Below, piece after piece: positions 3,341-35,512 of a DNA stretch of 38,158 nt. This DNA is from a candidate division WOR-3 bacterium (lineage in GTDB: Bacteria > Hydrothermota > Hydrothermia > Hydrothermales > JAJRUZ01), in assembly GCA_039804025.1 (NCBI GenBank), contig JBDRZP010000019.1:1-38158 (forward strand). The letters are read 5' to 3'. The notes beneath the pieces were generated by a model that had not been told where the DNA came from, did not search any database, and saw only the letters and a list, made by a program, of their open reading frames with translations. Position 1 is the first letter of the stretch, and each line of letters begins with the position of its first letter. The translations under genes were made by a program, and so were the position numbers.

Positions 3341-4385
3341 TAATTTTCTTTCTCTCTTTTAAAAGAACTTTTTCATAAAAAGATAAATTCTCAAGAATTT
3401 TACCAGCCCCCCTTACCACACAAGTCCTTGGATCATCCGCAATCCTAACAGGAAGACCTGTTGCTTCCTGTAATAAGGCATCTAAATTTTTAAGCAAAGC
3501 ACCCCCACCTGTTAAAAAAATCCCCCTGTCAATAATATCGGAGGAAAGCTCAGGGGGAGTTTTATCAAGAGCCTTTTTGGTAGCATCTATTATCTGTGAA
3601 AGAGGCTCTTTTAAAGCCTCTCTAACTTCAGAGGAAGTAATCCTTATAGTTCTCGGAACCCCCCTTACAAGGTCTCTTCCTCTTACCTCCATTTCTTTTT
3701 CCTCTCCAATGGGTATGCAATTTCCTATTTCTATTTTAATCTTTTCTGCTGTTTGCTCACCTATAAGCACATTGTATTTTCTCTTAACATACTCAACAAT
3801 TGCCTCATCTAGCTCATCACCGGCAGTTCTTATAGAAACATTTGAAACAATTCCATTTAAAGCAATAACCGCAATTTCTGTGGTACCACCACCTATATCA
3901 ATTACCATATTACCAACAGGTTCCGAAATTGGAAGACCTATACCCACAGCAGCTGCAATTGGTTCTGATACAAGAAAAACCTCCCTTGCTCCTGCTTGAA
4001 TTGCTGAATCTTTCACTGCTCTCATTTCAACCTCTGTAATACCTGAGGGAACACATATTAAAACTTTCGGATGCAAAAAAAGGGATTTTTTTGTAACTTT
4101 TGTAATAAAATAGTGAAGCATCTCCTGAACAAGAACAAAATCAGCAATAACTCCATCTTTCATTGGTCTTGCAGCTACAATTTCTCCTGGGGTCTTTCCA
4201 AGCATTTTTTTGGCTTCATTTCCAACAGCTATAACCTTACCTGATTCTTTTTCAACAGCAACAACAGAAGGCTCATCAAGAACAATCCCTTTTTCTTTTA
4301 AATAAATAAGAGTAGTTGCCGTTCCTAAATCAACAGCTATTTCATTACCAAGAAAAATATTAAAAAATTTAAAATAGTTTACCAA
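3333..4385 (-). CDS. mreB: Cell-shape actin homologue MreB
   Basis: 350 aa, the family's normal length. The actin-fold nucleotide motifs are clear: phosphate-1 loop AVDLGTATTLIYL (about residues 17-29), phosphate-2 loop VIDIGGGTTEIAV (about 162-174) and the adenosine motif FLTGGGALL near residue 290. The N-terminal stretch [13 protein letters not shown] looks like an amphipathic membrane-targeting helix. MreB filaments organise the PBP2-RodA elongasome on the inner face of the membrane. Its start overlaps the end of rpmC by 17 nt, so this cytoskeletal gene is translationally coupled to a ribosomal protein gene. No separate promoter is visible in front of it. Confidence 0.97.
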   Translation of the reverse strand: MVNYFKFFNIFLGNEIAVDLGTATTLIYLKEKGIVLDEPSVVAVEKESGKVIAVGNEAKKMLGKTPGEIVAARPMKDGVIADFVLVQEMLHYFITKVTKKSLFLHPKVLICVPSGITEVEMRAVKDSAIQAGAREVFLVSEPIAAAVGIGLPISEPVGNMVIDIGGGTTEIAVIALNGIVSNVSIRTAGDELDEAIVEYVKRKYNVLIGEQTAEKIKIEIGNCIPIGEEKEMEVRGRDLVRGVPRTIRITSSEVREALKEPLSQIIDATKKALDKTPPELSSDIIDRGIFLTGGGALLKNLDALLQEATGLPVRIADDPRTCVVRGAGKILENLSFYEKVLLKERKKIIE

Positions 4386-4566
4386 ATTTTTCTTTTAAAA
4401 TTGTTTTAACTCTTGCAATATCCCTTTTTATTTTTCTTATTTCCATAGGATTTTCAATGTTTCCAAGTACCTTCTTTGTCCTTAATTCAAATAATTTTTC
4501 TTTTAAATCTTTCAAAGTTTTTAAAAGTTCTTCCTCGCTCAATTCCCTAAGTTCAGAAATTTTCAT
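4369..4566 (-). CDS. rpmC: 50S ribosomal protein L29 (uL29)
   Basis: 65 aa, typical size. The two-helix hairpin of L29 is visible in [14 protein letters not shown] and the basic second helix ([18 protein letters not shown]). L29 sits near the peptide exit tunnel on the large subunit. It overlaps rplP by 4 nt upstream and mreB by 17 nt downstream. In most bacteria rpsQ and rplN follow here, so this gene marks the break point of the S10 cluster in this genome. Confidence 0.95.
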
Positions 4567-4982
4567 ACTCCGCCCTCCTTATAACTTACAAATCTTGTTT
4601 TTATTGGTAATTTATGAGAAGCAATTTCAAAAGCTCTTCTCGCAGATTCCTCAGGAACACCTGCCAGTTCAAATAAAATTCTTCCTCTCTTAACAACTGC
4701 TACATAATGGTCTACATTACCTTTTCCTTTCCCCATCCTGGTTTCAGCAGGCTTTTTTGTAACCGGTTTATCTGGAAAAATTCTAATCCAGAGCTTTCCA
4801 CCTTTTTTAAGAAATCTACCTATAGCAAGTCTACAGGCTTCAATCTGATTTGCAGTTATCCAAGCTGACTCCAGTGCTTTCAAGCCATATTCACCAAAAG
4901 CAAGATAGTATCCATCAATAGCCTTTCCCTTTCTTCTCCCCCTGTGCATTTTCCTGTACTTCATTCTCTTAGGTTGTAACAT
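4563..4982 (-). CDS. rplP: 50S ribosomal protein L16 (uL16)
   Basis: 139 aa, normal length. The start [20 protein letters not shown] is the canonical L16 N-terminus. [21 protein letters not shown] carries the family signature. L16 contacts the A-site tRNA elbow and the peptidyl-transferase centre. Position between rpsC and rpmC is as in the standard S10 operon. Confidence 0.98.
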
Positions 4983-4984
4983 AT

Positions 4985-5641
4985 TTAAACCTCCTCAAGT
5001 TCTGGTTTTTCAAGGATTTCACCTTTATAAATCCATACTTTTACACCTATGGTTCCATACCTTGTGAATGCTGTTGCAAATCCATAATCAATATCAGCTC
5101 TTATTGTTTGAAGGGGAACTCTACCCTGCATATAACCTTCCTTTCTTGCTATTTCAGCTCCCTGTATTCTACCCTTGCATTGAACTTTAATTCCCTTAGC
5201 ACCCATTCTAAAAGCCTGTGAAACAGCCCTTTTCATAGCCCTTCTATGAGATACCTGTTGTTCTATTCTTCTTGCAATTCCATCAGCAACAAGCTGTGCA
5301 TCCAGTTCAGGAACCCTTATTTCCTGCACATGAATTGTAATATTTTCATTCCTTAAAAGAGCCGAAAGCTCTTTTTTAACAAGTTCAATTTCTTTTCCTT
5401 TCTGTCCAATTACCATTCCAGGTGATGCGGTATGAATTGTTACAGTAATCTGTTCACCGGCTCTATCAATTACAATATCAGAAACCCTTGCATCCTTATA
5501 CCTTTCTCTAAGATACTGCCTGATCTTTATATCTTCCTCAAGATATTTAACATACTCTTTTTTTCTATCACTAAACCAGTGAGCCTTCCAATCTTTATAA
5601 ATACCAAGTCTAAAACCATAAGGGTGAACTTTTTGACCCAT
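4985..5641 (-). CDS. rpsC: 30S ribosomal protein S3 (uS3)
   Basis: 218 aa, normal length. It begins [14 protein letters not shown], has a KH domain with [12 protein letters not shown] at about residues 75-86, and a C-terminal S3 domain ([20 protein letters not shown]). It forms part of the mRNA entry channel with S4 and S5. It abuts rplP with a 2-nt gap and overlaps rplV by one base (ATAATG junction). Confidence 0.98.
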
Positions 5642-13427: not shown

Positions 13428-13500
13428 GCCCGCGTAGCTCAGGCGGTAGAGCACTTCCTTGGTAAGGAAGAGGCCGCCGGTTCGAGTCCGGCCGCGGGCT
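13428..13500 (+). tRNA. tRNA-Thr (anticodon GGT)
   Basis: A full cloverleaf can be drawn. The acceptor is GCCCGCG paired with CGCGGGC (13493-13499), the D stem GCTC/GAGC, the anticodon stem CTTCC/GGAAG with loop TTGGTAA, the variable loop AGGCC, and the T stem GCCGG/CCGGC with loop TTCGAGT. Anticodon GGT at 13461-13463 reads ACC and ACU. The discriminator is T and no CCA is encoded. A37 follows an ANN-reading anticodon, so this tRNA is a substrate for t6A modification, whose first enzyme is encoded directly downstream on the same transcript. Confidence 0.97.
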
Positions 13501-13512
13501 AAATTTATTATT

Positions 13513-14598
13513 TTGGAAATTAAAATACCTCAAAAAAGTTTCAAAAAAGCTGTTGAAATTCTTAAAAAAGGGGGAGTTATAATAGTTCCCACAGATACAG
13601 TTTCCGGATTTGTTACTCCTTACTGGTCCTATGAGGGCGTAAATCGTATCTATAAAATCAAAAGAAGAGAAAAGGAAAAAGTGTTAGGACTTTTTATTTC
13701 TGATAACAAAGATATAAAAAAATTTGCAAAAAACATAACAGAAACAAGAAAAAGGATATTCCATAATTTATGGCCAGGGCAACTTACTTTACTTTTTAAA
13801 GCTAAAAATAATCTACCTGATTATTTAGTTCATAAGGAAAAAAAAACAGTTTCCTTAAGAATACCATCTCATCCCCTTATTTTAAAACTTATAAATGAAG
13901 TTGGACCTCTTGTTCAGACATCTTGTAACATATCAGGTGAGAAGGAAATTATAAAATATAGTGAAATTTTTGAAAAATTTGGTAAATATGTAGATTATGT
14001 ATACCCTCAAGATTCTTATGGAAATATCTCATCTACAATTCTTGATGTCTCAAAATATCCATTTAAATTAATAAGAAAAGGACCGGTTGGAATAAGTCAG
14101 ATTGAAAATGTTCTTTTAAAAAAAATAAAAATCTCAAAGGATATAAAAACAAATATTCTCTTTGTGTGCACAGGAAATACCTGCAGGTCACCTATGGCAA
14201 TGGGAATTTTTTATTCACTTTTAGATAATGAATTAAAAGAATTAGTAAATGTAAAATCAGCAGGGCTTGCAACTTATGATGGGCTTCCTATATCAGAAAA
14301 TACATTAAAAGTTCTTCAAAAATTTTACAATGTAAATCTATCTTATTACAGAACAAAAAAATTAAAAAAAGATGACCTTGATTGGGCTGATTTTATTTAT
14401 GTTATGGAAAAAAAACACTTGAGGGAAATCCAAAAAATGGGATATTACGAAAAGGTGAGACTACTTCATCCAGGTGAAGAACCATCTGATATACCTGATC
14501 CCTTTGGTAAAGAATTTAAATTTTACATAGAGGTTTCAAAAATTATAGAAGAAAGTATTAAAAAAATCCTTAAGGAAATTAAATACAGATATTCATGA
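13513..14598 (+). CDS. TsaC (threonylcarbamoyl-AMP synthase) fused to protein arginine phosphatase
   Basis: 361 aa from a TTG at 13513. The open frame extends back into the tRNA, which cannot be coding, so the start must lie after 13500. ATT codons at 13507 or 13510 are alternatives, and no Shine-Dalgarno is visible. Residues about 8-200 are a Sua5/YciO/YrdC domain (VPTDTVSG at 25-32, KRR at 50-52, TSCNISG at 136-142, SSTILD at 173-178). It makes threonylcarbamoyl-AMP for t6A37. Residues about 212-361 are a low-molecular-weight phosphatase with CTGNTCRS (Cys219, Arg225) and the general acid in DPFG (Asp329). The Thr in CTGNT is the residue that distinguishes YwlE-type arginine phosphatases from tyrosine phosphatases (CLGNI). 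In Bacillus ywlC and ywlE are near neighbours, which supports a real fusion. It overlaps purM by 4 nt. Confidence 0.9.
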   Translation: MEIKIPQKSFKKAVEILKKGGVIIVPTDTVSGFVTPYWSYEGVNRIYKIKRREKEKVLGLFISDNKDIKKFAKNITETRKRIFHNLWPGQLTLLFKAKNNLPDYLVHKEKKTVSLRIPSHPLILKLINEVGPLVQTSCNISGEKEIIKYSEIFEKFGKYVDYVYPQDSYGNISSTILDVSKYPFKLIRKGPVGISQIENVLLKKIKISKDIKTNILFVCTGNTCRSPMAMGIFYSLLDNELKELVNVKSAGLATYDGLPISENTLKVLQKFYNVNLSYYRTKKLKKDDLDWADFIYVMEKKHLREIQKMGYYEKVRLLHPGEEPSDIPDPFGKEFKFYIEVSKIIEESIKKILKEIKYRYS

Positions 14599-15560
14599 GA
14601 TACAAAGACGCAGGAGTAGATTTACAAAAGGCAGAAGATGTATCAAAAATATTTAAAATATTAACAAAACAAAAAGAAAGATTCTCCGGTATTTACGACT
14701 TTGGAGAATTTTTCCTTGCAGCCACATGTGATGGTGTTGGAACTAAAACTCAGGTGGCAAGATTAGCAAAAAATTATAAAATTTTAGGCGAAGATATTGT
14801 TAATCATTGTGTAAATGATCTTTTATGCCAAGGGGCAAAACCTCTATTCTTTCTTGATTACATTGCCTCATCAAATCTTGATTTGAAAATAGTAAAAGAA
14901 ATTGCAAAGGGAATGTTAAAAGCTTTGAAAGAAAACGGTAATATACCCCTTTTAGGTGGTGAGACAGCTGAGATGCCTGACATATACAATAAAGATGAAT
15001 GGGATATTGTAGGATTCTGTATAGGGATTATTAAAAAGGAAAACTTACTTCCAAAAAAAATTAAAATTGGTGATATTCTTATTGGATTTCCCTCAACAGG
15101 GCTTCATACCAATGGCTACTCTCTTGCAAGAAAAATTCTATTAAAAAAATATAATTTAGAAAAAAAATTCAATGGAAAAACTCTAAAAGAACTTTTACTT
15201 AAACCCCATAGAAGTTATTTTAATATCCTATACCCATTAATTGAAAAAAATCTAATAAAGGGACTTGCCCATATTACAGGTGGTGGAATTGAGGGAAATT
15301 TAAAAAGGATTATGCCTGAGGGACTGGGTTTTGAAATAGATATAAGGGAAATTGATAAACCCTTAATTTTTGATATTATTGAAAAAGAAGGAAACGTGCC
15401 AAGAGATGAAATGTTAAGGGTCTTCAATATGGGAATTGGAATGATAGCTGTAATAGATAATAAAGATTTTGATACAGTTAGAAACAATTTAATTGATGAA
15501 AAAATCAAGTTTTATATAATCGGGGAAATTATAAAAGGCAAAAGAATAATAATTTCCTAA
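14595..15560 (+). CDS. purM: Phosphoribosylformylglycinamidine cyclo-ligase (AIR synthetase)
   Basis: 321 aa. Begins RYKDAGVDLQKAEDV, then CDGVGTKTQVA (about residues 49-59), VNHCVNDLLCQGAKPLFFLD and GGETAEMPDIY, all hallmarks of PurM. It converts FGAM to AIR with ATP in purine synthesis. It overlaps the TsaC-phosphatase gene by ATGA, so it is coupled to it. No other pur gene is in the window. The only metabolic link to its neighbour is adenylate supply, which is inference. Confidence 0.97.
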   Translation: MRYKDAGVDLQKAEDVSKIFKILTKQKERFSGIYDFGEFFLAATCDGVGTKTQVARLAKNYKILGEDIVNHCVNDLLCQGAKPLFFLDYIASSNLDLKIVKEIAKGMLKALKENGNIPLLGGETAEMPDIYNKDEWDIVGFCIGIIKKENLLPKKIKIGDILIGFPSTGLHTNGYSLARKILLKKYNLEKKFNGKTLKELLLKPHRSYFNILYPLIEKNLIKGLAHITGGGIEGNLKRIMPEGLGFEIDIREIDKPLIFDIIEKEGNVPRDEMLRVFNMGIGMIAVIDNKDFDTVRNNLIDEKIKFYIIGEIIKGKRIIIS

Positions 15561-23286: not shown

Positions 23287-25008
23287 TTATTCAGAAACAA
23301 GAAACTTGTAAGTTCCCTCAGATGAACCTCTGTATTTCAGTAAATATACTCCAGACTTTAAATTCTTAAATCTGAGTTCATTGGTTCCAGAATTTACAAA
23401 AAGATTCCTTGTTTCAACCTTCCTTCCATTCAAATCATAAAGCTCAAACACCATTTTCCCATCGTAAGGTGAAATAAATCTAACTGTTCCATTCCTGTAT
23501 ACATTACCACTAAATTTAAGCCCAGAACTCTTAACAAAAGACCTTGAACCCTCTCCAACACTCATAAGAGGATAATAACCTGTAAGAATATAAGTCTGAT
23601 CCACTGCTCCAAGCCTGTATACTCCATAGTGTATATCATAACCAGCCATAGCTCCATCCCATCCCTTCACAACATTAAAGAGTAACCACACCTTATCCCC
23701 TCCAAATACATGCTTCACTGTATGAACCTGATGCTCTATCTTATCATCCGTCGGCTGACCTGCTTCATCCCTTGTTATATTTATCGGCGCACTCCATGTC
23801 ACCCCACCATCCGTCGAATACTTAACATAAATATCAGTCCATCCATACCTTGAACCATCAACATAATCAATCGTATGATAACCAACATATGTAACATAAT
23901 AAACATTATTAACATGATCAATTGTTAACTCACAGTTAACAAAAGGAATATTCTCATCAGGATCAATCACTGTATATGTCGCTGTCGGAGTCACAAGATA
24001 AAGACCATTACCCGCAACAAAAGTATCCGCTGTCCCAAAAATAATAGGATTGGTAAATAAACAGGTTGTAGAGAAAAGCGCTACTGGTGTTGAAGCATCC
24101 AAAAGTGCAAAATCCCAATAATTAGTCCACCAGAAAGCATTAACAATATGTTGTGAATTATCATAAGAAAAAGTAAATGTATCAACAGGAATCTGCGCAT
24201 TAAGAACAATACTTGACCAGGTCGCACCATCATCATAAGAAACTTTTACTGTATCAGGACTTACAAGTGCTGCAAGTGTTCCACCTAAATAATCAGTATT
24301 CCAAGCTTCACCAGGATGGTTAGGAAATACTGTTGCTGGAGGATCTGGATCAATAAACCCTAACCTCCACCACCAGTGAGTAAAATAGTTATTATCAGCA
24401 CCTATCATCCAGTTTACATAATTGGCAAGGTCATTTGAACCAGTTGCAAAACTCTGAAAACCGACAAAGGGAGTCGTTGCATAATAATACTTTATAATAT
24501 TCCCCTGACTGAGGTCACCATCTGATGGAACAGTTGCTATTGAAGCACCATAACCAGGAGTAACATTTGCATAAGAGCATATGAATGTATCAGAGTTACC
24601 CATCCATGGACCAACCTGTGGATACCTTCCTCCACCATCATCATTGTATGGCCATACCCTGCTCCATGTCATTCCACCATCCTTTGTAAATGTAAGAGCT
24701 AATCTACCTGAACCTGGATAGTTTGGATTATCTGATAATCTTCTATAAGTGAAGAAAACACAGGATTGGTCAGGAGACGTGTTAATGGGTTTTTCAGCAG
24801 TATAAAGGGTTGAATACTGGTTGGGCATTGTATCAACAAACTCTATTGTTAAGGTGGTATATGCAGGAGGGGATGCAAGATAATAGTCAAGAGAACTCAC
24901 CACATCTTTCTCAATAACAAAATGTGTCTTCACAGTAGGAGTTATATAGCCTGCAAGGAGGAATGTAGTTATTAGCATTCCTCCTATTATTTTTTTATAA
25001 TTACTCAT
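23287..25008 (-). CDS. Secreted Asp-box (BNR/sialidase-like propeller) protein with T9SS-type C-terminal domain
   Basis: 573 aa. Signal peptide at about residues 5-25. Three Asp boxes (S/T-x-D-x-G-x-T-W) are visible: FTKDGGMTW (about 107-115), SYDDGATW (about 257-264) and YSTDGGVTW (about 397-405), typical of beta-propellers of the sialidase/BNR type. No Arg-triad or other catalytic site can be assigned, so it may be structural or ligand-binding. The last about 75 residues (FELYDLNGRKVETR, LKSGVYLLKY) form a type A-like T9SS sorting domain. It has its own promoter-like sequence, a leader motif, a strong AAGGAGG and a strong terminator, the layout expected of an abundant surface protein. Confidence 0.85.
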   Translation of the reverse strand: MSNYKKIIGGMLITTFLLAGYITPTVKTHFVIEKDVVSSLDYYLASPPAYTTLTIEFVDTMPNQYSTLYTAEKPINTSPDQSCVFFTYRRLSDNPNYPGSGRLALTFTKDGGMTWSRVWPYNDDGGGRYPQVGPWMGNSDTFICSYANVTPGYGASIATVPSDGDLSQGNIIKYYYATTPFVGFQSFATGSNDLANYVNWMIGADNNYFTHWWWRLGFIDPDPPATVFPNHPGEAWNTDYLGGTLAALVSPDTVKVSYDDGATWSSIVLNAQIPVDTFTFSYDNSQHIVNAFWWTNYWDFALLDASTPVALFSTTCLFTNPIIFGTADTFVAGNGLYLVTPTATYTVIDPDENIPFVNCELTIDHVNNVYYVTYVGYHTIDYVDGSRYGWTDIYVKYSTDGGVTWSAPINITRDEAGQPTDDKIEHQVHTVKHVFGGDKVWLLFNVVKGWDGAMAGYDIHYGVYRLGAVDQTYILTGYYPLMSVGEGSRSFVKSSGLKFSGNVYRNGTVRFISPYDGKMVFELYDLNGRKVETRNLFVNSGTNELRFKNLKSGVYLLKYRGSSEGTYKFLVSE

Positions 25009-25027
25009 TTAAAAACCTCCTTTTTTT

Positions 25028-25044
25028 ATGGGATTTGAACCCAT
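25028..25044 (-). promoter_or_regulatory. Perfect T-arm-like hairpin before the Asp-box protein gene
   Basis: The sense strand reads ATGGG-TTCAAAT-CCCAT: a perfect 5-bp stem and 7-nt TTCRANY loop, indistinguishable in form from a tRNA T arm. It ends 19 nt before the ATG and does not overlap the Shine-Dalgarno. No acceptor, D or anticodon arm is nearby, so it is not part of a tRNA gene. Confidence 0.65.
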
Positions 25045-25055
25045 TTTATTTTTTA

Positions 25056-25085
25056 ATTTTAATCAATCATTCATTAACTCTTCAA
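25056..25085 (-). promoter_or_regulatory. Possible promoter of the Asp-box protein gene
   Basis: TTGAAG (25080-25085), 18-nt spacer and TAAAAT (25056-25061) on the minus strand, overlapping the end of the TPR lipoprotein gene. The predicted start lies shortly before the T-arm-like hairpin. Confidence 0.4.
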
Positions 25086-25923
25086 TTTTTAAAAGAATTT
25101 TTAAACGAGAAAGAGGGTCAAAGGGATCCTGAGGATAATCATTCCAGCCAGAGAGTTTCAAAACATCAACTGCATTTCCGTATAGACCTTCCTTAAAATA
25201 AGCATAAGCAGCAGAACCAATAATATTTGTAAATTTTATAAAAGGATAATGAGGAAAATAAAAGGCTCTACTTCTCTTTGCAAGAGAATAGAGATATTCA
25301 GCAGCAAGTGAATTTTTGTCCTGAGCAAGATATATAAACCCTATGCCTGCCCAAGCCCATAAAAATTTATCATCTGTTCCCATCTGAGGCACATAATAGC
25401 TGTAATCTATAAAAGTTACTGTATCAGGAGCACTGCCTTTAAAGTAAACAAGGGTATCATCAAAATAAAAAGGAATTTTAACATTTGCAGGTGCTTCAAT
25501 TACACTTGAAACCCAAACAATATTTCTCTTTTTTGTCTTTATAGCCCAAGTCGCTCCATATGGAAGAGAAGGACCCTGAACTATTGTTGCAACCTCTTTA
25601 AATCTTTTTTCAACTAAAGAAATTCCATCAAGCGCAAGAATTAGAGAAAAATAAGAAAGTGCTGAACTAAGATCATAATTTTCTCTTTCAAGAAGCGTAA
25701 ATCCTTTACCAAGAAGTGCTTCTCTATCTTGAAGATTTAAAGTTATAAGAGAATCAAACCAGAATTCAGCATTTGCAAAATCTCCCTTATCATAATAGAA
25801 CCACGCTTTTTTAAGAAGTTCATCTCTTGATGGCTCCGGTGAAAATTCAGTCTCAACCTTTTTACAGGCTGTAAGAAATATCATAGAAACCAAAGTTAAA
25901 GATAAAAAGCTCTTCATTTTCAT
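25063..25923 (-). CDS. TPR lipoprotein
   Basis: 286 aa. The signal peptide ends in a lipobox LTAC (Cys20), so it is a lipoprotein. After it come TPR-like helix pairs (DELLKKAWFYYDKGDFANAEFWF, about residues 38-60; REALLGKGFTLLERENY, about 73-89; and more near 190-285). A beta-rich stretch interrupts at about 110-175. TPR lipoproteins often act as assembly or docking factors. Its place 11 nt behind a large secreted protein and in the PorV gene cluster suggests a role in surface-protein export or anchoring, which is inference. Confidence 0.8.
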   Translation of the reverse strand: MKMKSFLSLTLVSMIFLTACKKVETEFSPEPSRDELLKKAWFYYDKGDFANAEFWFDSLITLNLQDREALLGKGFTLLERENYDLSSALSYFSLILALDGISLVEKRFKEVATIVQGPSLPYGATWAIKTKKRNIVWVSSVIEAPANVKIPFYFDDTLVYFKGSAPDTVTFIDYSYYVPQMGTDDKFLWAWAGIGFIYLAQDKNSLAAEYLYSLAKRSRAFYFPHYPFIKFTNIIGSAAYAYFKEGLYGNAVDVLKLSGWNDYPQDPFDPLSRLKILLKIEELMND

Positions 25924-25934
25924 TTCAACCCTCC

Positions 25935-28900
25935 TTATTTAGAATCAAAAACAATAACTTTCTTTTTAATTGTTGAAAATCCCTCTATATCAGCTACTAT
26001 GAAATAAGTGCCCTGAGAAGGAATATTAAGAGTAAATTCATAAATTCCAGGCTCTTTTTCACCTTTAAGTAGTTTAGAAATCTTTCTTCCTGATGAATTA
26101 TAAATAGATAATTCAACATTCTTTTTAACAGGAATATAAAAGGAAATTTTTGCCTCCTCTTTCTTCATAATAGGTGGTGCTTTTATCAATGGAGTATTTA
26201 AACCTCCTCCGCCGCTTCTTACCTGGAATACTCCAAAAGTGTTTGTCTCAAAGAGGAATTTCCCCTCGTTCCTATCAACAATTCCTTCAACAGGAATCCA
26301 ACCAATCCCACTTTCATATCTGTAAAGGGTAACTCCCTCATTTTTCAATGAAGGATCAATAATCTCCACTCTAAAGTTAGAAGAAATTACTTTTCCATTG
26401 CGCCCAATTGTTATAATATCTGAATAACCTTCTGCTGAACCAGGAATAATGTAATCAAAAGCAATTTTATCATTTCTTGAAAGCGTAAGCATAAAGGAAT
26501 TATTGATATTGGATGGAATATTAACTTTAATAGAACCATCAGAAGAAGCAAAAATACCACCTCCAGTTACATAAAAAACAGGAACAGAAACAACAATATT
26601 GGTTCCATTTCCTGTTGTATCTTCCACATAAGCATTAAAGTTATATATAGCACTTTTCCTCTGAAGTTCCTTTGATGTGGTAAATAGAGCAATTGGAGCA
26701 GAACCTGCAAGGTTTGTAAGATTTTCATCAACATCAATAACCCTTCCACCTTCTGAAATTGTAAGCTCCACACCTTCCTCATTAACATCTTTATAAACCT
26801 TTCTTCTACTCCAGAGATATACATCAACAAAGTTATCAATAGCAGGGTTCTGGAAAACCATCAAAATGGGGTATGGAACTTCTAAATCTCTTCCCCTTGC
26901 CGTGCTGAAAACTCTTTCAAGATCAGTATTTACAACCACAATTTGCTGTTTCAAGGATACAGTATTATCATTCAAAAGAACAAAATATGTATGTCTCAAG
27001 GTATTATCAGGGAAAAGTTTAGTTACCTCTATTGTATTATCAACTTTATAATTTATATTCCAAACCTCAATAGGTGAAAACCAGTTTCCCTGAGCATCAA
27101 AATAGGAAGCATCATCGGGAAAACTAAATCTAAGTATATGTGTGCTTGCATCAGGATTATGATTATAAATTACATATGAAAAAGGCTCTTGTTCAATAAA
27201 TGCATATCTCAACTCTGTTGTAGATTCCTCTTTTGGGAAAGGAACAAATAAGGTATAATCCTTTTTTGCATTAGCAATTGCCCATTGAGAAATGTAAGGT
27301 TTAAATCTTTCTAAAGATGTTGAAGTGTCGCTAAAGAGTTCTTTAATTTTTGATATTCCATACTTTTCCTTTATATATTCTAAAAGGGTAAATATTCTTG
27401 CAGTGCTATATTCATTAGCCTCAGGTTCTCCTTCCCCGTGATACTTTGAAATATTATTCATATCTACATTTGTTCCAGTAGAATCATAATATTCAGTAAA
27501 ATCAAAAATACCAGGAATTCCAGTTATAGGAGCCTGATCCACCTCATATTTGTAATTACCTATTAATAGAGTAGCAAAACCTTTTCTTACAAGCTTATTT
27601 TCCTTTGGTTTTAAATTAAAGAGTCCCCTGTTGACAAACTGATAATCAAATACAAATTTCTTTTCAAGATCTGTAAGAGATAGAAAACCACCAACTTTTC
27701 CAAGTAGTTCAAAACCAACTTTTACATATATGGCATCTTTTAGCCCTTGACTATTATCCTGCCACTTATCATGCAAGGTAAAGAGGGATACAGGCATTAT
27801 ATCAGAAGGTTTGTAAGGAGGACTCCCGTCGGGATCAGGAGGAGTAACTAAATAAGGATTAATAACAAAATGGAAAGTATCTTCAGGATAAGAAGAACCA
27901 AAGTAATTTAAAAAAATAGATTTGATTTTTTCTAAATCTATATAGAGAGTATCACTAAATAAAGGTTTAAATGCAGAAAGGAAAGCATTTACAATCTCAT
28001 CAGCAACATTTATCCCTATCATAGTTGAAGTTTCAGGCTTTTGTGGGTCATACTGTTCCTCAATTCCAGGATTGAAATTCCACCCGTAATTACCTCCTCC
28101 CAAATCTTTAAGATAAAAAAGTCCTGCCTCACAAGCATACCATATTCTATTATAATTATCCGATTCAACATCAAAACCATTTAAAGCACCATAATTAAGA
28201 AATGCATTAAGACCTGATGTAAAATGATTTCCAAGGTCATCATAAACTCCCTCATTCCTTATAACAGCAAAGAAAGTTCCAAGACCTGGATAGGAACCTG
28301 AAGTTTTTTCAGTAAGTGAAATAACATCTTTGCCAGAAAAAGCATTTATTGAAACCCAGGTTAATCCATTATCATCAGAATAATAAGCCCCTGAAGTTGT
28401 CCCCATATATATTCTGCTGTTTGGTAATCCTGTCCCTTTAATTGAATTAATAGTTAAATTATTTATCTGAGTCCAGTTTGTTCCATCCCATCTAAATAAA
28501 CCTGAAGGGGTAGCAGCAAGAATAAAAGAACTTGTCGCATAAAGAATATCTACTCTCTCACTTAAATTACCCACTTTAGTCCAGGTTTGATAATTGTCAT
28601 TAATTTTAGCAAAATAAACACCATCACTTCTTCCAGCATAAATAATAGTATCAATCTTTCCAGTCACAAGCGAAATTGATAAAGGATTAAGATTCGTGTC
28701 TATTACTGAAACAGTAAATGTTGTTGAATTATATAACAAAATATTCCCCATAGAATCTACAGCAAAAACATTTTGAGGGATATAAACTGAACCACTCTTT
28801 TTATATGATACGTCAAAATCAATTATTTTACCAGGAATAATCTTTGAAAAGGCAAGAAGATTTGTATTATCAAGAGAAGATGTTCTATAAATACCTATTC

Positions 28901-29192
28901 CAGAAGCTATTAACCATCCATATTTCCTTTGAGGTAAATTACCGGATATTTTATTAATTTTAAATCTTTTTACTGGAATTTTTTCATAAGGAGTCCATAC
29001 AACAAAGTTCAAATCTTTTAAAGTTCCTCCTTCTTCATATTGAACTTTGTCAATTACCCTTGCAATTATATCCTGAGGATAAAAAGCAAGTGTTATACCC
29101 CATCTCAAGAAGATCTGTGATTTTTTTTGACCTATTGTATAAGAATGTAAAGGCAAAAAAAGTATCAAGGATAACAAAAATAATTTCTTCAT
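25935..29192 (-). CDS. Large secreted protein: propeller, degenerate metallopeptidase-like domain, T9SS-type tail
   Basis: 1085 aa with a signal peptide (about residues 1-18). Residues about 80-370 look like a beta-propeller (repeated GVYF, GLFRWDG, GAYYSDDNGLTW, GLFYLKD). Residues about 390-650 resemble the M6/M30-type metallopeptidase scaffold of secreted FCB-type proteins, with YSTARIFTLLEYIKEKYG and FKPYISQWAIANA. Where HExxH would be expected I read FVFDYQF (513-519), and where WVNEGLAE is expected, LVRKGFAT. No HExxH exists in the protein. A C-terminal Ig-like domain ends in a T9SS type A-like tail (about 1010-1085). It may bind rather than cut. It sits next to the PorV-like gene. Confidence 0.78.
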   Translation of the reverse strand: MKKLFLLSLILFLPLHSYTIGQKKSQIFLRWGITLAFYPQDIIARVIDKVQYEEGGTLKDLNFVVWTPYEKIPVKRFKINKISGNLPQRKYGWLIASGIGIYRTSSLDNTNLLAFSKIIPGKIIDFDVSYKKSGSVYIPQNVFAVDSMGNILLYNSTTFTVSVIDTNLNPLSISLVTGKIDTIIYAGRSDGVYFAKINDNYQTWTKVGNLSERVDILYATSSFILAATPSGLFRWDGTNWTQINNLTINSIKGTGLPNSRIYMGTTSGAYYSDDNGLTWVSINAFSGKDVISLTEKTSGSYPGLGTFFAVIRNEGVYDDLGNHFTSGLNAFLNYGALNGFDVESDNYNRIWYACEAGLFYLKDLGGGNYGWNFNPGIEEQYDPQKPETSTMIGINVADEIVNAFLSAFKPLFSDTLYIDLEKIKSIFLNYFGSSYPEDTFHFVINPYLVTPPDPDGSPPYKPSDIMPVSLFTLHDKWQDNSQGLKDAIYVKVGFELLGKVGGFLSLTDLEKKFVFDYQFVNRGLFNLKPKENKLVRKGFATLLIGNYKYEVDQAPITGIPGIFDFTEYYDSTGTNVDMNNISKYHGEGEPEANEYSTARIFTLLEYIKEKYGISKIKELFSDTSTSLERFKPYISQWAIANAKKDYTLFVPFPKEESTTELRYAFIEQEPFSYVIYNHNPDASTHILRFSFPDDASYFDAQGNWFSPIEVWNINYKVDNTIEVTKLFPDNTLRHTYFVLLNDNTVSLKQQIVVVNTDLERVFSTARGRDLEVPYPILMVFQNPAIDNFVDVYLWSRRKVYKDVNEEGVELTISEGGRVIDVDENLTNLAGSAPIALFTTSKELQRKSAIYNFNAYVEDTTGNGTNIVVSVPVFYVTGGGIFASSDGSIKVNIPSNINNSFMLTLSRNDKIAFDYIIPGSAEGYSDIITIGRNGKVISSNFRVEIIDPSLKNEGVTLYRYESGIGWIPVEGIVDRNEGKFLFETNTFGVFQVRSGGGGLNTPLIKAPPIMKKEEAKISFYIPVKKNVELSIYNSSGRKISKLLKGEKEPGIYEFTLNIPSQGTYFIVADIEGFSTIKKKVIVFDSK

Positions 29193-29205
29193 TTTTTAAC
29201 CTCCT

Positions 29206-30195
29206 TTATAAACTGAAGTTAATAGAAAATCTATTAACATCAGGCAAAATTCCCATATCATTAAAGGAATAATTAATCTTTATAGTTCCTAACCTTGTTG
29301 GTGCATTCAACCCAAAACCAAGTGAAAAACCTCCCTCGTTAAACTTTTCCTCTATTACCCTCTGACCTATAAGATAATAGTAGCCTGTTGAAATATAAAT
29401 TGTATTAAAATCAAATCTAATTCCTGCATGAAAACTCTCATTATAATCTGTTGGATGCAAAAGCTCTATAGCACCTGTTACCTTTAAAAACTTTGAAGTA
29501 TAGGGTTCAAAAGCAATTCCTAATTTAAAAGTCGTTGGCAAAGGATAGCTCATAAACTCCCTTTCATTTTCCCTCATATCACCTCCTTCATAAATATACT
29601 GAATATATTTACCATCAGGTTTAAGCTCAGGTCCAAGATTTAAAAATGCCATTCCAAGTTTTATTGTATAAAGTCCAGTATTAAAAAGAGTCCCAGCATC
29701 GAAAGCAACTCCCTGAGTTGAAGAATAGGGTCCGTAATTTTCTCTAACCATCTTAATAGATACACCTGCTGTAAATCTATCTGTAAAATACCTTGAATAG
29801 TTCAACCCAATCTGATAAGCATTATAACTGAAAGTATTTCCGGTAGGACCTTCAACAGTCCATTCTTCAAGATTTCCTGAGAAGAAACCAGAGAAAAATA
29901 AACCAAAATTCCCATAAAGCCCTTGACTTTTAACAAAAGAAAGATAAGGAACCTTTGTATCTTCAAACCACATAGTATAACCAGTATAAATTTCATAACC
30001 TTTTACATCAGCAGTTCCAGATGGGTTCCAGAAAACACTTGAAGCACCACTTGAAACAGCAGTGTAAGCACCACCCATAGACATTGCTTCAGGCAAAAGG
30101 GGAATAGAAAGAAAATCAGCACCCACAAATCCCACCTTTTGCTGTGCAAAAAGCAAAAGGGGGAATAAAAGAAGGGGAGTTAAAAACTTTCTCAT
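29206..30195 (-). CDS. PorV/PorQ-family outer-membrane beta-barrel
   Basis: 329 aa with a clear signal peptide (MRKFLTPLLLFPLLLFAQQ). Residues after it read SIPLLPEAMSMGGAYTAVSSGASSVFWNPSG, the typical N-terminus of PorV/PorQ and FadL-like barrels (first half of this motif at about residues 29-47). Amphipathic strands follow to a C-terminal FSINFSL. In T9SS PorV receives cargo from the translocon and hands it to the sortase. It is flanked by three secreted proteins with T9SS-like tails, which supports this role. No other T9SS core gene is in the window. Confidence 0.85.
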   Translation of the reverse strand: MRKFLTPLLLFPLLLFAQQKVGFVGADFLSIPLLPEAMSMGGAYTAVSSGASSVFWNPSGTADVKGYEIYTGYTMWFEDTKVPYLSFVKSQGLYGNFGLFFSGFFSGNLEEWTVEGPTGNTFSYNAYQIGLNYSRYFTDRFTAGVSIKMVRENYGPYSSTQGVAFDAGTLFNTGLYTIKLGMAFLNLGPELKPDGKYIQYIYEGGDMRENEREFMSYPLPTTFKLGIAFEPYTSKFLKVTGAIELLHPTDYNESFHAGIRFDFNTIYISTGYYYLIGQRVIEEKFNEGGFSLGFGLNAPTRLGTIKINYSFNDMGILPDVNRFSINFSL

Positions 30196-30209
30196 TAAAT
30201 TACCTCCTT

Positions 30210-32312
30210 TTAATCAAGTATTACAAACTTTCCAACCTTTGAATTACCTTCAGGAGTCTCAACTTTATAGTAATATAATCCTGAAGAAACCTTAACTCCG
30301 TTTTCATTTAAAAGGTCCCAGGATTCTGTCCCTGTTAAATTCTTATGGTCAAGCATCCTTACAAGTTTTCCACTGGCTGTAAATATATAAATCTTACAAA
30401 TAGGAGGAAGGTTCTGAAATTCAATTTTACTGTATAACTCAGTTGCAGACCATTTTGCTGAACCAAGGAAAGGATTAGGAACAACTTTTACCTGTGAAAG
30501 ATCTCCTTTTTCAGCAGGTTCCGTCGTAATATAAAGAGGAACTGCACTTCCATCAGGATTTTTCTTGTAATTCACCATTGGAGATTCAAGAGAATCCTCA
30601 TCCATTGCTGTCACAACATAATAGTAAGGAAATCCAACCTGTGCAGTTGTATCCACATAACTATGAGAGATTCTACCAATCTCATCTCTTTTTATATCTG
30701 CTAAGAGTTTAAAATTCCTTGGTTCAAAAATACTTCTATATACTCTATAAAGTAAAAAGTCAGGTCTTTGCTTTAAAGGATCCACATACGCTTCTGCAGA
30801 ATTATCCCATACAAGAAGAACACCTTTTTTTGTTAACTGATACTTTAAAAGTGGTGCAGGAGGCGGAATTGGGATTTTCCAGTGATTATCTTTTGCAGGG
30901 TCAAACTTTGGAGCTGTAGGATGAGCAGGGTCTCCAGGATTACCAGCATAATATGCCCTGTATGCCCACTCAAGTGTTTGTCTTGCACCTCTCAACCATC
31001 CCCTTCCCCAGTAATTATCCATTCCACCATCTAAACCCTGACCAACACCGGCAATCCATACAAATTTCAAAGTATCTCCACTTCTAAGGGTATATGGTCC
31101 AACTGTATTTAAAAATCTATAATCAAACTCTGATGCATTTAAATCATAGGGATGGGGAGCGTATCTATATCCCTGGGTTGCAGGATGTTTTCCTTTCATG
31201 TATCTGTATCTATCAAGGTCAGTTCCAGGGTCAGATTCCCAGTTCCACCACTGATGAGAAAATGGTCTCACAATCCTGCATGTGTCCCCATTATCAATCC
31301 ATATAGAATCAGAAACTGAGGGAGGAGTATAAATGAAAGCTCCAAAACAATAACCAGCAGACTTTCCACCTTCACCCTCATCATTTCCGGGAACAGCAGG
31401 ATCATCTCCATCATAAATATAACTCATACCATAGGGAATAAGATAACCTAAAACAGTATCATAAGTGTTATCCGGTTTTCTAACAGGTATCTTTGATACA
31501 CAGGTTGTTCCTATATGTTCCATCTCATCATCACCCCATATGAAGTAATTGTCATCTATACCATCTGAGAAAGTTAAGAATGAATCTTTTACTCCATAGA
31601 AGCTTACCTTATCAGAATGTGGTGGGAATTTAAAATTGTTGCTCCACTCATTATTTGTCCAACCTGTAAAATGAACAAGGTCATCAATATGCGGGTTACT
31701 TGCATCAGCACCGGAAACATCACAATCATACCACATCCCTACAAAAAAGGAATCTAACTGATTTCCTATACCTGGAATATCTGAAGAATCCTTATTAAAT
31801 GTTATATAAAGTTCATAGGCTATAAAATCATTGTAAGGTTCATTAGGCCAGGTAAGAACTCTCCATAAAACCTTTACACCAAGATGCCTACCAGGAGAAT
31901 TCCTTGAATTTGACTTACAATCATTAAAACATACAACAATATCAACAACTGACTTTCCAGGACCAACATACTCCTTAAAATTTTCACAAGGAGACCATTC
32001 ATTTGCTGTATAATCAGCCTGAGTTACATAATATTCATTACCAACCTTTGCCCCAACAAGAAAATAGGAAAGCCATAAGTAATAATTGTTTACTGCAGCA
32101 CCACCTGGCCATGATAATCCCCATAAATTACCAGCACCCTCCCCACCCATAAATCCATAATTACTCATCCAGTTCCAGGCTTCAGGTATTGTCTGGTTAA
32201 ATATCGCTCGAGGACCCTTTAAAACCTGAACTCCGCCTGACTTTGAGGTAATTTTATTGAAGGAAAAAACACTCCCAACCATCAAAAGGCTTATAAAAAT
32301 TAATCTCTTCAT
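30210..32312 (-). CDS. Large secreted protein with FN3-like and T9SS/FlgD-like C-terminal domains
   Basis: 700 aa with a signal peptide (about residues 1-17). The first about 490 residues are rich in Trp, Tyr, Asp and Gly and contain several Cys (about 108-132 and 198). I do not recognise a named family. An FN3-like segment follows (APLLKYQLTKKGVLLVWDNS to YYYVVTAMDEDS, about 490-580). A final Ig-like domain (VKVVPNPFLGS, CKIYIFTASGKLVRML, SSGLYYYKVET) is of the FlgD/T9SS type A kind. It is placed between the receptor and the PorV-like barrel, so it is probably a surface protein exported with them. No catalytic motif is seen. Confidence 0.8.
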   Translation of the reverse strand: MKRLIFISLLMVGSVFSFNKITSKSGGVQVLKGPRAIFNQTIPEAWNWMSNYGFMGGEGAGNLWGLSWPGGAAVNNYYLWLSYFLVGAKVGNEYYVTQADYTANEWSPCENFKEYVGPGKSVVDIVVCFNDCKSNSRNSPGRHLGVKVLWRVLTWPNEPYNDFIAYELYITFNKDSSDIPGIGNQLDSFFVGMWYDCDVSGADASNPHIDDLVHFTGWTNNEWSNNFKFPPHSDKVSFYGVKDSFLTFSDGIDDNYFIWGDDEMEHIGTTCVSKIPVRKPDNTYDTVLGYLIPYGMSYIYDGDDPAVPGNDEGEGGKSAGYCFGAFIYTPPSVSDSIWIDNGDTCRIVRPFSHQWWNWESDPGTDLDRYRYMKGKHPATQGYRYAPHPYDLNASEFDYRFLNTVGPYTLRSGDTLKFVWIAGVGQGLDGGMDNYWGRGWLRGARQTLEWAYRAYYAGNPGDPAHPTAPKFDPAKDNHWKIPIPPPAPLLKYQLTKKGVLLVWDNSAEAYVDPLKQRPDFLLYRVYRSIFEPRNFKLLADIKRDEIGRISHSYVDTTAQVGFPYYYVVTAMDEDSLESPMVNYKKNPDGSAVPLYITTEPAEKGDLSQVKVVPNPFLGSAKWSATELYSKIEFQNLPPICKIYIFTASGKLVRMLDHKNLTGTESWDLLNENGVKVSSGLYYYKVETPEGNSKVGKFVILD

Positions 32313-32329
32313 AATTTAATTCCTCCTTT

Positions 32330-35300
32330 TTAAAATCCACCTATTTCAAAGTAAAAACCAATTCTTGTCTGTCTTCTCGGCTCCCATACACTCAAATCCT
32401 TTACCTCACCCTCAGGGTCTTTAAACTGGTCATACCAGTTTTCATCAGCAATACCTCCAAGATTTTTTGTATTAAAGACATTATAGATATCCATAAAAAC
32501 CTGTAAATTACCTTTCCATAGAGGGAAATTCTTAAACAACCTAAGGTCAGCATTCTTTGTGGAAGGCAATCTCCTTGCATTAATAAGCTCAATTGCATCT
32601 CTCTCAGACCTTATAGGAGGTGTCCATGGGAATCCAGAACCATAAGTAAACTGAAGTGTTACTCCCCAATCAGAAATACCAAGAAATCTCTTATTTTGAG
32701 GAACAATCCATGAAAATATAGCATTTACAGAATGGGTTTGGTCCCAATCAAGAGGTGATTCCTTTGGAGGAAGAGGATATCCAAGCCACTGCCAGTAATA
32801 ACCAAGATAAGGAGAAGAGAAAGAACCTTTTGCTACCTGGAAGGTATAGTTTATATTAAGGGATAAATAGGGAATAAATAAACCACCTGGTCTTTTCACT
32901 ATCTCAACGCCAATTCCTCTGGAAGAACCATAATCCTCATTATAAAATGTTGTTACATTTGTTAATGGGTCAACTTTATAAAACTTTGTCCTCGCCCAGT
33001 TCTGAATATCCTTATAGAAAGCTGTTATATCAATTATAAAATCTGTTGTAAAACCATGCTTAACTCCTAACTCATAGGAAACAGTCTTTTCTGGTTTTAA
33101 TCTTGGATTTCCAATTATTGGAAATGCACCTGTCACAATATAATTGAAATTTGTCTGGTTATAAGGTGGTATCTGGTAATAATGTCCATAGGTAAAATGA
33201 AGAACATCTCTCTCAGTAATTGGATGAGAAACACCAACCCTTGGAGATACAATCCAGTAAGGCTTTGTATTTTCTGCCTCTGAAAAATATTTCACTCCGT
33301 AAACAGGATCTGTTATAAAGGCATCCTGTGGTCTTGATTCAAGAATCGGTGAATAGTATCCATCATTATCTATTAAATCAAATCTCACTCCAACCCTTGC
33401 CCACATTCCCTCCATTTCAATTTTATCTCTGAGATAAAAGGCTACCTGATAGGGATTTACCTTATGGGAATTCAGGAAATCAACAAAAGTATAAGTTGTA
33501 TCAAAAGGTCTTTTTGAAAGTGGTGGATTAACCATCTGTAGATAAATATTTCCACCTGAAGCAAAATCTACATCATATACCATCAAATTAATCTTTTTAT
33601 ATTCAGCACCAACTAAAAGTTCATGACCTGGAGCAGTTTTTGTTTTCTTTGTAAGCTGAGCTGTCATCTTCCAGGAAAAGGTAAGATGGGAATTTCTCAT
33701 ATACCCCCACTGGTCCCTATCAAAATTGTGAGGATATGGTAAATAAAGATTACCAACAGAAAGAATTGTATCCAAAATCTGTGAACCTGAAGGAAGAGAA
33801 TCTATCCTTTCATATTCAAAAAAGCGCCAGTCAGGTTTAATTGGATAAGGATAAAGACGACCCTGCATATCTACAAAAGTATCAATTTTACCATCTGGTA
33901 ACTTAACTACAATAACATCAAAATCCTGAACAAAACTCTGCCCCCATCCATACCTGTTTAAAGGAGCTCTCGGATCAGTTGGCCACCATTCAGGATGTGC
34001 AGCACTCTGACCCGGATAAAAACCGTAAACAAAATCTTCCCACCAGTAGAAAGGAAGTTCCACATAACCCTCTTTTTCATTAACATTGAAATATTTCCTA
34101 TCAACCTTGGTCATTTTAGCAACCGAATCTATTCCATACCAATAATTGTTATCTATAATCCACTTACCCTGAATTGAATCATAATAAACTTTCTTAAAAT
34201 AATCAATGTCTATCTCAGCAAATCCATCAAGATCCCTGTCATCAAAATCATCTACACCATCACCATCAATATCCTCAAAAATATTCCTCTTCTGGTCTCT
34301 TACAAAATAACCTACATTAATTTCATTCATATACTTTTGAGCAACAAGCCAGTTTATTCCACCTGAAAAACTTGTTAATTTCCTTAAAAACTCATAAGTC
34401 AAATCAGGCATAAATCTAAACTGAGGATCATAAAGTCCAAATCTTTCATATCTGTAGAATCCTGTTAAATATAAAAGGAGATATTGTGTTGGTCTTGTAT
34501 CAACTCTAAAAGATAAACCCCAGTTTTTCATTCTCTTATTCTCATCCGAGTACACAGGGAACCTTCCTTTGTTGGTTTGATAATCACCACTTATAAGAAA
34601 ATTAGCAGTTTTTCTATTAAAAAAGGGCACCGGACCTGATAATGAAAATTCATTTAAAATTTCATCTCTTCTGTGTCTTTTACCTGTTGTAGCCTTCATA
34701 TCCCTGTTATATCCAAGTAAAAAGTCTCTTATGTAATCTCCCCTTTCTGCATTTAAAAGTCCATTAATTTGATCACCAAGAAAACTCAAATTTGTTGTTG
34801 AAAATCTGTAAGCAAAATCATATTTTTCCCCGCCTCCCTTTGTAACCAAATTAATTGTTCCTCCTGCTGCTGCTCCCTGATCAACATCAAAACCACCTGT
34901 TGAAACACCAGCTTCCTCCATTGCAAGAAGTGGAATTCCAGGGGCAGTAAAAGCTGTAAAGGGATCTCTCACCTCAACTCCATTTACAACATAAACAACT
35001 TCATCAGGTCTTGAACCCCTTATATGAAGTCCTCCCCTTTCCACAACACCCACTGAAATTTCAACAACACTCTGAATATTCATAACAGGAATCTGGGTTA
35101 CTTCCTCACCCTTCATTATCTTTCTTGATTCAGGAAGATCAGGTCTTATCAGTTTTTCCTTAGCTTCAACAACAATTGGCTCCACCTCAACTGTTGTAGG
35201 CTTTAACCCTATATTCACCTCTATTGTTCTATCAGCCTCAACAATTACTCCTTTAACCAAACCTGGCTGATACCCAGCATATGTTACCTCTATATTGTAT

Positions 35301-35512
35301 GTTCCAGGAGGAACATTTAAAATCACATAATAACCTTGATCATCGGTATAAGCACCCAATTGCGTCCCGGCTAACTTAACTACTGCAAAAGGAAGACCCT
35401 CACCGGTCGTGGCATCTGTTACACGACCGGAAATTTTACCGGTTGTTCCTGCCCATAGGATAGTTAAAAAAACACCTATGAGCAGAAAAATACTTTTTAC
35501 CTTTAGATCCAT
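32330..35512 (-). CDS. TonB-dependent outer-membrane receptor with CarboxypepD-like N-terminal domain
   Basis: 1060 aa. Signal peptide (about 1-22), then a carboxypeptidase regulatory-like beta-sandwich (GKISGRVTDATTGEGLPFA to about residue 105), a probable TonB box EPIVVEA (about 111-117), a plug domain (GLHIRGSRPDEVVYVVNGVE, about 161-180) and a barrel ending in Phe. A very long extracellular loop at about 405-560 carries DIDGDGVDDFDDRDLDGF, a calcium-binding repeat of the thrombospondin type 3 kind. It imports a bulky ligand that cannot be named. No SusD partner is present, unlike Bacteroidetes SusCD pairs. The energising tonB-exbBD genes lie directly upstream. It starts with a strong AAAGGAGG. 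Confidence 0.92.
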   Translation of the reverse strand: MDLKVKSIFLLIGVFLTILWAGTTGKISGRVTDATTGEGLPFAVVKLAGTQLGAYTDDQGYYVILNVPPGTYNIEVTYAGYQPGLVKGVIVEADRTIEVNIGLKPTTVEVEPIVVEAKEKLIRPDLPESRKIMKGEEVTQIPVMNIQSVVEISVGVVERGGLHIRGSRPDEVVYVVNGVEVRDPFTAFTAPGIPLLAMEEAGVSTGGFDVDQGAAAGGTINLVTKGGGEKYDFAYRFSTTNLSFLGDQINGLLNAERGDYIRDFLLGYNRDMKATTGKRHRRDEILNEFSLSGPVPFFNRKTANFLISGDYQTNKGRFPVYSDENKRMKNWGLSFRVDTRPTQYLLLYLTGFYRYERFGLYDPQFRFMPDLTYEFLRKLTSFSGGINWLVAQKYMNEINVGYFVRDQKRNIFEDIDGDGVDDFDDRDLDGFAEIDIDYFKKVYYDSIQGKWIIDNNYWYGIDSVAKMTKVDRKYFNVNEKEGYVELPFYWWEDFVYGFYPGQSAAHPEWWPTDPRAPLNRYGWGQSFVQDFDVIVVKLPDGKIDTFVDMQGRLYPYPIKPDWRFFEYERIDSLPSGSQILDTILSVGNLYLPYPHNFDRDQWGYMRNSHLTFSWKMTAQLTKKTKTAPGHELLVGAEYKKINLMVYDVDFASGGNIYLQMVNPPLSKRPFDTTYTFVDFLNSHKVNPYQVAFYLRDKIEMEGMWARVGVRFDLIDNDGYYSPILESRPQDAFITDPVYGVKYFSEAENTKPYWIVSPRVGVSHPITERDVLHFTYGHYYQIPPYNQTNFNYIVTGAFPIIGNPRLKPEKTVSYELGVKHGFTTDFIIDITAFYKDIQNWARTKFYKVDPLTNVTTFYNEDYGSSRGIGVEIVKRPGGLFIPYLSLNINYTFQVAKGSFSSPYLGYYWQWLGYPLPPKESPLDWDQTHSVNAIFSWIVPQNKRFLGISDWGVTLQFTYGSGFPWTPPIRSERDAIELINARRLPSTKNADLRLFKNFPLWKGNLQVFMDIYNVFNTKNLGGIADENWYDQFKDPEGEVKDLSVWEPRRQTRIGFYFEIGGF

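Follow-up and report, generated by a model that had tools for sequence, protein, structure and literature searches.

The fusion gene and its two domains

The stretch of DNA analysed here (the window) comprises 38,158 nt from a candidate division WOR-3 bacterium. Within it, a single forward ORF of 361 aa, running from TTG 13513 to the stop at 14598, encodes a TsaC domain followed by a YwlE-type low-molecular-weight phosphatase domain (Table 1). The reading frame is open over 13459-14598, and a mechanical ORF call had started it at TTG 13459, within the preceding tRNA; we rejected that start because TTG 13513, 12 nt past the 3' end of the tRNA-Thr, is kept at this place in four genomes, with TTGGA conserved in 4/4 genomes of the same family. 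An assembly join or a frameshift artefact was also rejected, since the identical single-ORF layout recurs in ~100 independent genomes. The fusion ORF is thus neither a chance frame nor the product of an assembly join.

Table 1. Features of the tsaC-ywlE locus, in window coordinates
Feature	Position	Strand	Basis
tRNA-Thr (GGT)	13428..13500	+	ARAGORN; directly 5' of fusion
tsaC-ywlE fusion gene	13513..14598	+	ORF, Pfam domains, conserved start, dN/dS 0.10 vs nearest relative
TsaC (Sua5/YciO/YrdC) domain, predicted TC-AMP synthase	13555..14082	+	PF01300, TIGR00057
KxR half of TsaC catalytic tetrad, K50/R52	13660..13668	+	alignment; tetrad per PMC10321239
SxN half of TsaC catalytic tetrad, S137/N139	13921..13929	+	alignment; tetrad per PMC10321239
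Interdomain segment, ~31 residues from R188 to C219 in WOR-3 members	14083..14154	+	modelled with high confidence
YwlE-type low-molecular-weight phosphatase domain	14155..14568	+	PF01451; YwlE structures; Foldseek
P-loop CTGNTCRS, Thr at position 5	14167..14190	+	sequence
General-acid motif D329-P-F-G	14497..14508	+	alignment to YwlE structures
purM	14595..15560	+	TIGR00878; overlaps fusion stop by ATGA

At loci L006-L009, tRNA-Thr also lies directly upstream of the fusion and purM downstream of it. The tRNA is probably co-transcribed with the fusion gene, and purM is likely to be translationally coupled to it via the ATGA overlap. ANN-codon-reading tRNAs are the substrates of t6A modification; across the loci compared for this feature (the window, L006-L009, L010, L012, L014, L016 and L021), a t6A-type tRNA-Thr(GGT) stands directly 5' of the fusion in genomes of WOR-3 families f1 and f2, whereas in f3, f5 and f11 it lies within ~0.7 kb of the fusion, as a member of a Thr-Tyr-Gly-Thr tRNA cluster. 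Elsewhere in the window, the region 23287-35512 carries type IX-like secretion signals, namely a PorV-family protein (29206-30195) and, for the products of 23287-25008 and 25935-29192, weak matches to Por_Secre_tail; a TonB-dependent receptor and tonB/exbD/exbB genes lie next to these.

Each domain of the fusion belongs to a known family. The N-terminal one matches PF01300 over the whole profile (residues 15-190, E 1.7e-44) and passes the curated cutoff of TIGR00057 (L-threonylcarbamoyladenylate synthase) with 162.5 bits against 123.2; the C-terminal one matches PF01451 (LMWPc), again over the whole profile (residues 215-352, E 1.3e-24). The Pfam search found no SUA5 domain (PF03481) in the fusion, in which LMWPc comes straight after TsaC. 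An AlphaFold2 model of the whole protein reached a mean pLDDT of 96 and a pTM of 0.90, and its Foldseek matches were Sua5/TsaC and YwlE. An earlier sequence-only reading of this DNA, which saw a complete Sua5/YrdC domain and a complete phosphatase in one frame, is borne out by the two whole-profile matches.

The catalytic tetrad KxR/SxN and the threonine-site residues of TsaC have been defined previously (PMC10321239). In the window protein, K50, R52, S137, N139, T27/T29, S174 and R188 are all present. None of them varies more than slightly among 22 aligned fused proteins with 30-68% identity to it, and no variation at all was seen at K50, S137, N139, S174 and R188, with R52 close behind. The phosphatase residues C219, R225 and D329-P330-x-G332 are invariant in the same alignment, and of 124 fused proteins, 123 retain C219/R225. 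Both active sites thus look intact, as had been claimed. Judged by its sequence, the TsaC domain is a catalytically intact, predicted TC-AMP synthase; its standing as the genome's sole TsaC besides HypF lends indirect support to the predicted formation of TC-AMP from Thr, HCO3- and ATP. In a comparison with a 96%-identical relative, dN/dS came to 0.115 in the TsaC portion and to 0.085 in the phosphatase portion; therefore, both fusion domains are under purifying selection.

The P-loop residue singled out by the sequence-only reading, Thr at position 5 of CTGNTCRS, is indeed the published determinant of phosphoarginine selectivity, Thr directing the enzyme to phosphoarginine and Ile to phosphotyrosine (PMC8001253). 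Of the best four PDB sequence matches of the phosphatase, three are YwlE entries, and every LMW-PTP ranks below these; Foldseek aligned the domain to 4egs (TM 0.90) and 4etn (TM 0.88), and the DPFG acid loop is common to the fusion, B. subtilis YwlE and Geobacillus YwlE. Scores stayed below the cutoffs of the models for LMW-PTP of the Wzb/PtpA type (PRK10126, 45.7 bits against 243; Thr, not Ile, at PX5) and for thioredoxin-type arsenate reductase ArsC (PRK13530, 30.5 against 215 bits).

Across the 124 fused proteins, position 5 is occupied by Thr in 76, Ser in 23, Cys in three and Ala in one, and by Leu, Ile, Met, Val, Arg or Lys in the other 21; bearers of such odd residues include WOR-3 families f3, f13, f30, f33, f35, f36 and f37. 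Since Ile, Leu, Met, Val or Arg occupies the position in f3, f13, f30, f35, f36 and f37, the specificity may drift. Fused phosphatases with an odd position 5 tend towards families with a low-scoring, divergent McsB, a weak correlation over 27 families (p 0.02) that we did not use as evidence; a co-drift of kinase and phosphatase specificity is possible.

Partner genes, distribution and association with McsB

In the genome that contains the window (2.12 Mb in 47 contigs, 95.6% complete), a profile search detected LMWPc in the fused copy only. TsaC-like domains are two in number, that of the fusion and one in a 762-aa frame; we take this frame to be HypF, given its length and an additional match to the TsaD family. 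The genome also encodes TsaD and a TsaB-like protein. The McsB-like arginine kinase and ClpC, which the sequence-only reading had proposed to look for, were both found. The full-length McsB (353 aa) matches the Geobacillus McsB structure 6fh1 with E 6.7e-74, so that an orphan phosphatase without a kinase was rejected, and ClpC matches its B. subtilis counterpart with E 1.8e-276. The ClpC N-domain keeps Glu in both repeats (GTEH/GSEH); the Glu of these TEH/SEH repeats we take to be the phosphoarginine docking residues. An McsA-like gene with a UVR motif precedes and overlaps mcsB. In Bacillus, mcsA-mcsB lie beside ctsR and clpC, whereas in this genome (G000:C16 1415-7370, locus L181) they do not; upstream of them are genes for a peptide release factor, for a class II tRNA synthetase (probably lysS) and for an ABC permease and its ATPase.

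The same two-domain order is widespread and not peculiar to this organism. We found the fusion in ~100 of 147 WOR-3 (Candidatus Stahlbacteria) genomes, and a scan of GTDB genomes revealed it also in Planctomycetota, Omnitrophota, Aerophobetes and one Gemmatimonadota bin. Bacillota possess Sua5-YwlE fusions with the SUA5 domain in between; separate but neighbouring genes of the ywlC/ywlE type are common in Bacillota loci, where the neighbourhood mentioned by the sequence-only reading is indeed seen, and a Caldithrix bin has tsaC and the phosphatase as overlapping ORFs. In a two-domain tree, both intact Bacillota fusions group with a Bacillota separate-gene pair (support 97-99%), apart from the TsaC-YwlE fusions, and hence there were at least two fusion origins. 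Relatives with two genes and a stop between, named beforehand as the case against the fusion, are confined to f23 and some f27 WOR-3 lineages, where the phosphatase is free-standing; the tether can therefore eventually be lost and is dispensable there. No paper within the open-access literature that we searched reports the fusion; publication elsewhere or plain database annotation is possible, and sequence databases probably display the TsaC-YwlE architecture.

Among good WOR-3 genomes (completeness >=90%, contamination <=5%), the fusion occurs in 70 of 80 with McsB and in 1 of 13 without it (Fisher 1.8e-8), a p-value that overstates the number of independent events because the McsB-less genomes represent few clades (families f6, f7 and f12). 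Four of the ten good McsB-positive genomes without the fusion have a free-standing YwlE-like protein (G096 and G097 of f23, G106 and G107 of f27). The good McsB-negative genome with the fusion is G144, both same-genus relatives of which have McsB. LMWPc proteins in the McsB-less WOR-3 families are short and arsenate-reductase-sized, or absent. In f6 and f7, ~320-410 aa frames of Sua5 length with a strong TsaC domain stand where the fusion would be expected, possibly the outcome of a replacement by transferred Sua5.

In other phyla, McsB is present in 25/26 fused, 10/11 adjacent-gene and 1/13 TsaC-only genomes (fused vs TsaC-only, p 4e-8). The sole McsB-less genome of these 26 is an Eubacterium bin (L222), whose Sua5-LMWPc fusion (3899-5437) is also alone among the fused proteins in having a broken P-loop; this pseudo-phosphatase is a mirror image of the pseudo-TsaC cases described below. 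The control genome of B. subtilis was negative for PF00217 (McsB) and PF02861 (Clp_N) and was unusable as a control, other Bacillaceae being positive; B. subtilis has McsB and ClpC, which suggests that this control genome is masked or incomplete. Overall, we infer from the sequence features and the co-occurrence with McsB that the phosphatase domain is specific for phosphoarginine.

Fused domains that lost the TsaC residues

Most TsaC catalytic residues are lost in 25 of 124 fused proteins, and in all 25 the phosphatase residues are intact. The bearers of such pseudo-TsaC domains are WOR-3 families f24, f26 and f27, two f21 members and seven planctomycetes. This loss of TsaC residues beside an intact fused phosphatase, in several lineages, is new here. 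A second, separate TsaC/Sua5 is encoded in 22 of the 25 genomes, the remaining three being incomplete bins, as against 1 of 89 genomes with complete-tetrad fusions (L198). Besides the fusion, the other complete-tetrad genomes hold only HypF or HypF fragments, one partial match at a contig end in the L185 genome being left unclassified. Thus, an intact fused TsaC is normally the sole source of TC-AMP. Both states can be met within the same genus, G068 having an intact fused TsaC and G069 a separate Sua5 along with a dead fused TsaC.

For the N part of the pseudo-TsaC domain, dN/dS could be computed in eight WOR-3 pairs (f24/f27) and lay at 0.20-0.40, which disfavours neutral decay. The TC-AMP duty has moved elsewhere, yet dN/dS is low, and therefore the dead domain is still selected while attached; in WOR-3, attachment seems to matter beyond t6A chemistry. 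The dead domain of f24 and f27 is recognisable through its last 60 residues. Aligned to TsaC with hhalign, pseudo-TsaC gave a probability of 98 for the whole domain and 37 without the last ~60 residues, so that its N part is recognised mainly via position and size; the AF2 model of the pseudo-domain was poor there (pLDDT 40-75), and Foldseek listed phosphatases only. The repeated pseudo-TsaC domains can serve as naturally occurring mutants that have lost the chemistry but not the attachment.

Possible role of the attachment and comparison with known systems

t6A is an essential, universal tRNA modification, in which TsaC performs the first step, and arginine phosphate is a bacterial 'degrade me' mark on proteins. 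To our knowledge, arginine phosphorylation has been studied almost only in Bacillota. Our results extend the joint presence of a YwlE-type phosphatase and McsB (plus ClpC in the case of the window's own genome) to Gram-negative phyla, most of them uncultured, where this phosphatase is physically joined to the first enzyme of t6A synthesis. We consider it likely that the fusion is a bifunctional enzyme, in which TsaC tethers or controls a phosphoarginine phosphatase opposing McsB-ClpC. The TsaC domain would be the cell's only threonylcarbamoyl-AMP synthase, supplying TsaD/TsaB for t6A37 in ANN-decoding tRNAs, and the YwlE-type domain would erase the phosphoarginine marks written by McsB, pulling clients back from ClpC-ClpP. 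The attachment would itself be of use: TsaC would act as a platform for the phosphatase, most plausibly by keeping it near the t6A machinery; this positioning or regulating role of TsaC we infer less surely than the specificity for phosphoarginine.

B. subtilis TsaD is phosphorylated on the arginine R282, the R282K substitution removes a ywlE-deletion effect, and t6A-linked regulation is affected by both TsaD-R282 phosphorylation and YwlE (PMC7546277). Thus, the link between t6A and arginine phosphate at which the sequence-only reading had hinted already has genetic support, and the dependence of the YwlE effect on TsaD-R282 makes a proposed connection between McsB-ClpC and t6A directly testable. 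Overall, the recurrence of the fusion in several phyla, almost only alongside McsB, suggests a physical link between translation fidelity and protein clean-up. It is tempting, albeit tentative, to suppose that TsaC is a targeting or allosteric module, which binds or senses TsaD/TsaB, tRNA, ATP or threonine and steers YwlE, and which recurrently turned into a pseudo-TsaC/YwlE regulator after a second TsaC/Sua5 was present. If so, this regulator would couple translation fidelity to McsB-ClpC protein quality control.

Since both domains come from one conserved neighbourhood, the fusion could also be a by-product of co-expression: the enzymes would be independent, and the ywlC/ywlE fusion would merely fix their co-expression and stoichiometry, with no mechanistic meaning. 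Such a collapse of an operon fits the neighbouring genes of Bacillota, the overlapping ones of Caldithrix, the presumed joining of YwlE to the next operon gene, rpiB (4egs, deposited as 'RpiB'), and the return to separate domains in f23 and in part of the f27 genomes. However, co-expression alone predicts the loss of a dead domain, whereas in WOR-3 f24, f26 and f27 a dead, full-size TsaC is under purifying selection beside a working TsaC/Sua5, and pseudo-TsaC is present, by residue loss, also in f21 and several planctomycetes. The selected pseudo-TsaC argues against this plainest rival, to which we attach a rather low probability.

It seems improbable that the phosphatase, instead of being phosphoarginine-specific, is of an ordinary kind that acts on protein tyrosine or on a broad range of substrates, or else is an arsenate reductase. 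The hydrophobic position 5 in some WOR-3 families would suit this, and LMW-PTP and arsenate reductase profiles do match, weakly and far under their cutoffs; yet Thr at position 5, the YwlE-like DPFG loop, the YwlE-led PDB matches, the tight co-occurrence with McsB, and the McsB-less families with a short, arsenate-reductase-sized LMWPc or none all speak against it. An action on a compound used or made in t6A synthesis (e.g., a phosphorylated small molecule or a tRNA end), with only indirect McsB co-occurrence, would accord with the attachment to TsaC and with the tRNA-Thr directly 5' in f1/f2 lineages. We regard it as very improbable, given that lineages devoid of McsB rely on a separate TsaC/Sua5 for t6A and have no such phosphatase, that the phosphatase stays intact in pseudo-TsaC lineages without attached TsaC activity, and that its fold is that of a protein phosphatase.

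Finally, the fusion may be compared with known systems. YwlC (Sua5) and YwlE of B. subtilis belong to the same enzyme families, with Thr in the P-loop and McsB/ClpC in the genome; they are separate proteins, whereas the fusion is a single polypeptide, whose TsaC consists of one domain and has no SUA5 domain attached. The closest solved relative of the phosphatase domain is Thermoanaerobacter YwlE 4egs (34% identity, at the TM of 0.90 given above), deposited as 'Ribose 5-phosphate isomerase RpiB'; from the deposit name, we take it to be YwlE joined to a neighbouring operon enzyme, which would be RpiB there and is TsaC here. Sua5 of P. abyssi and S. tokodaii and T. maritima TsaC2 combine, as the fusion does, a KxR/SxN TsaC domain with a second domain. 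In Sua5, the C-terminal domain is the Rossmann-like SUA5, in contrast to the phosphatase of the fusion, and two Bacillota loci (L254 and L258) carry TsaC, SUA5 and phosphatase domains together. In HypF and TobZ, a TsaC-like domain is fused to a Kae1-like domain (PMC10321239). These share with the fusion the presence of a TsaC-like domain in a multidomain protein, but differ in their carbamoyl-phosphate chemistry and unrelated partner, and HypF is a separate protein in the window's own genome.
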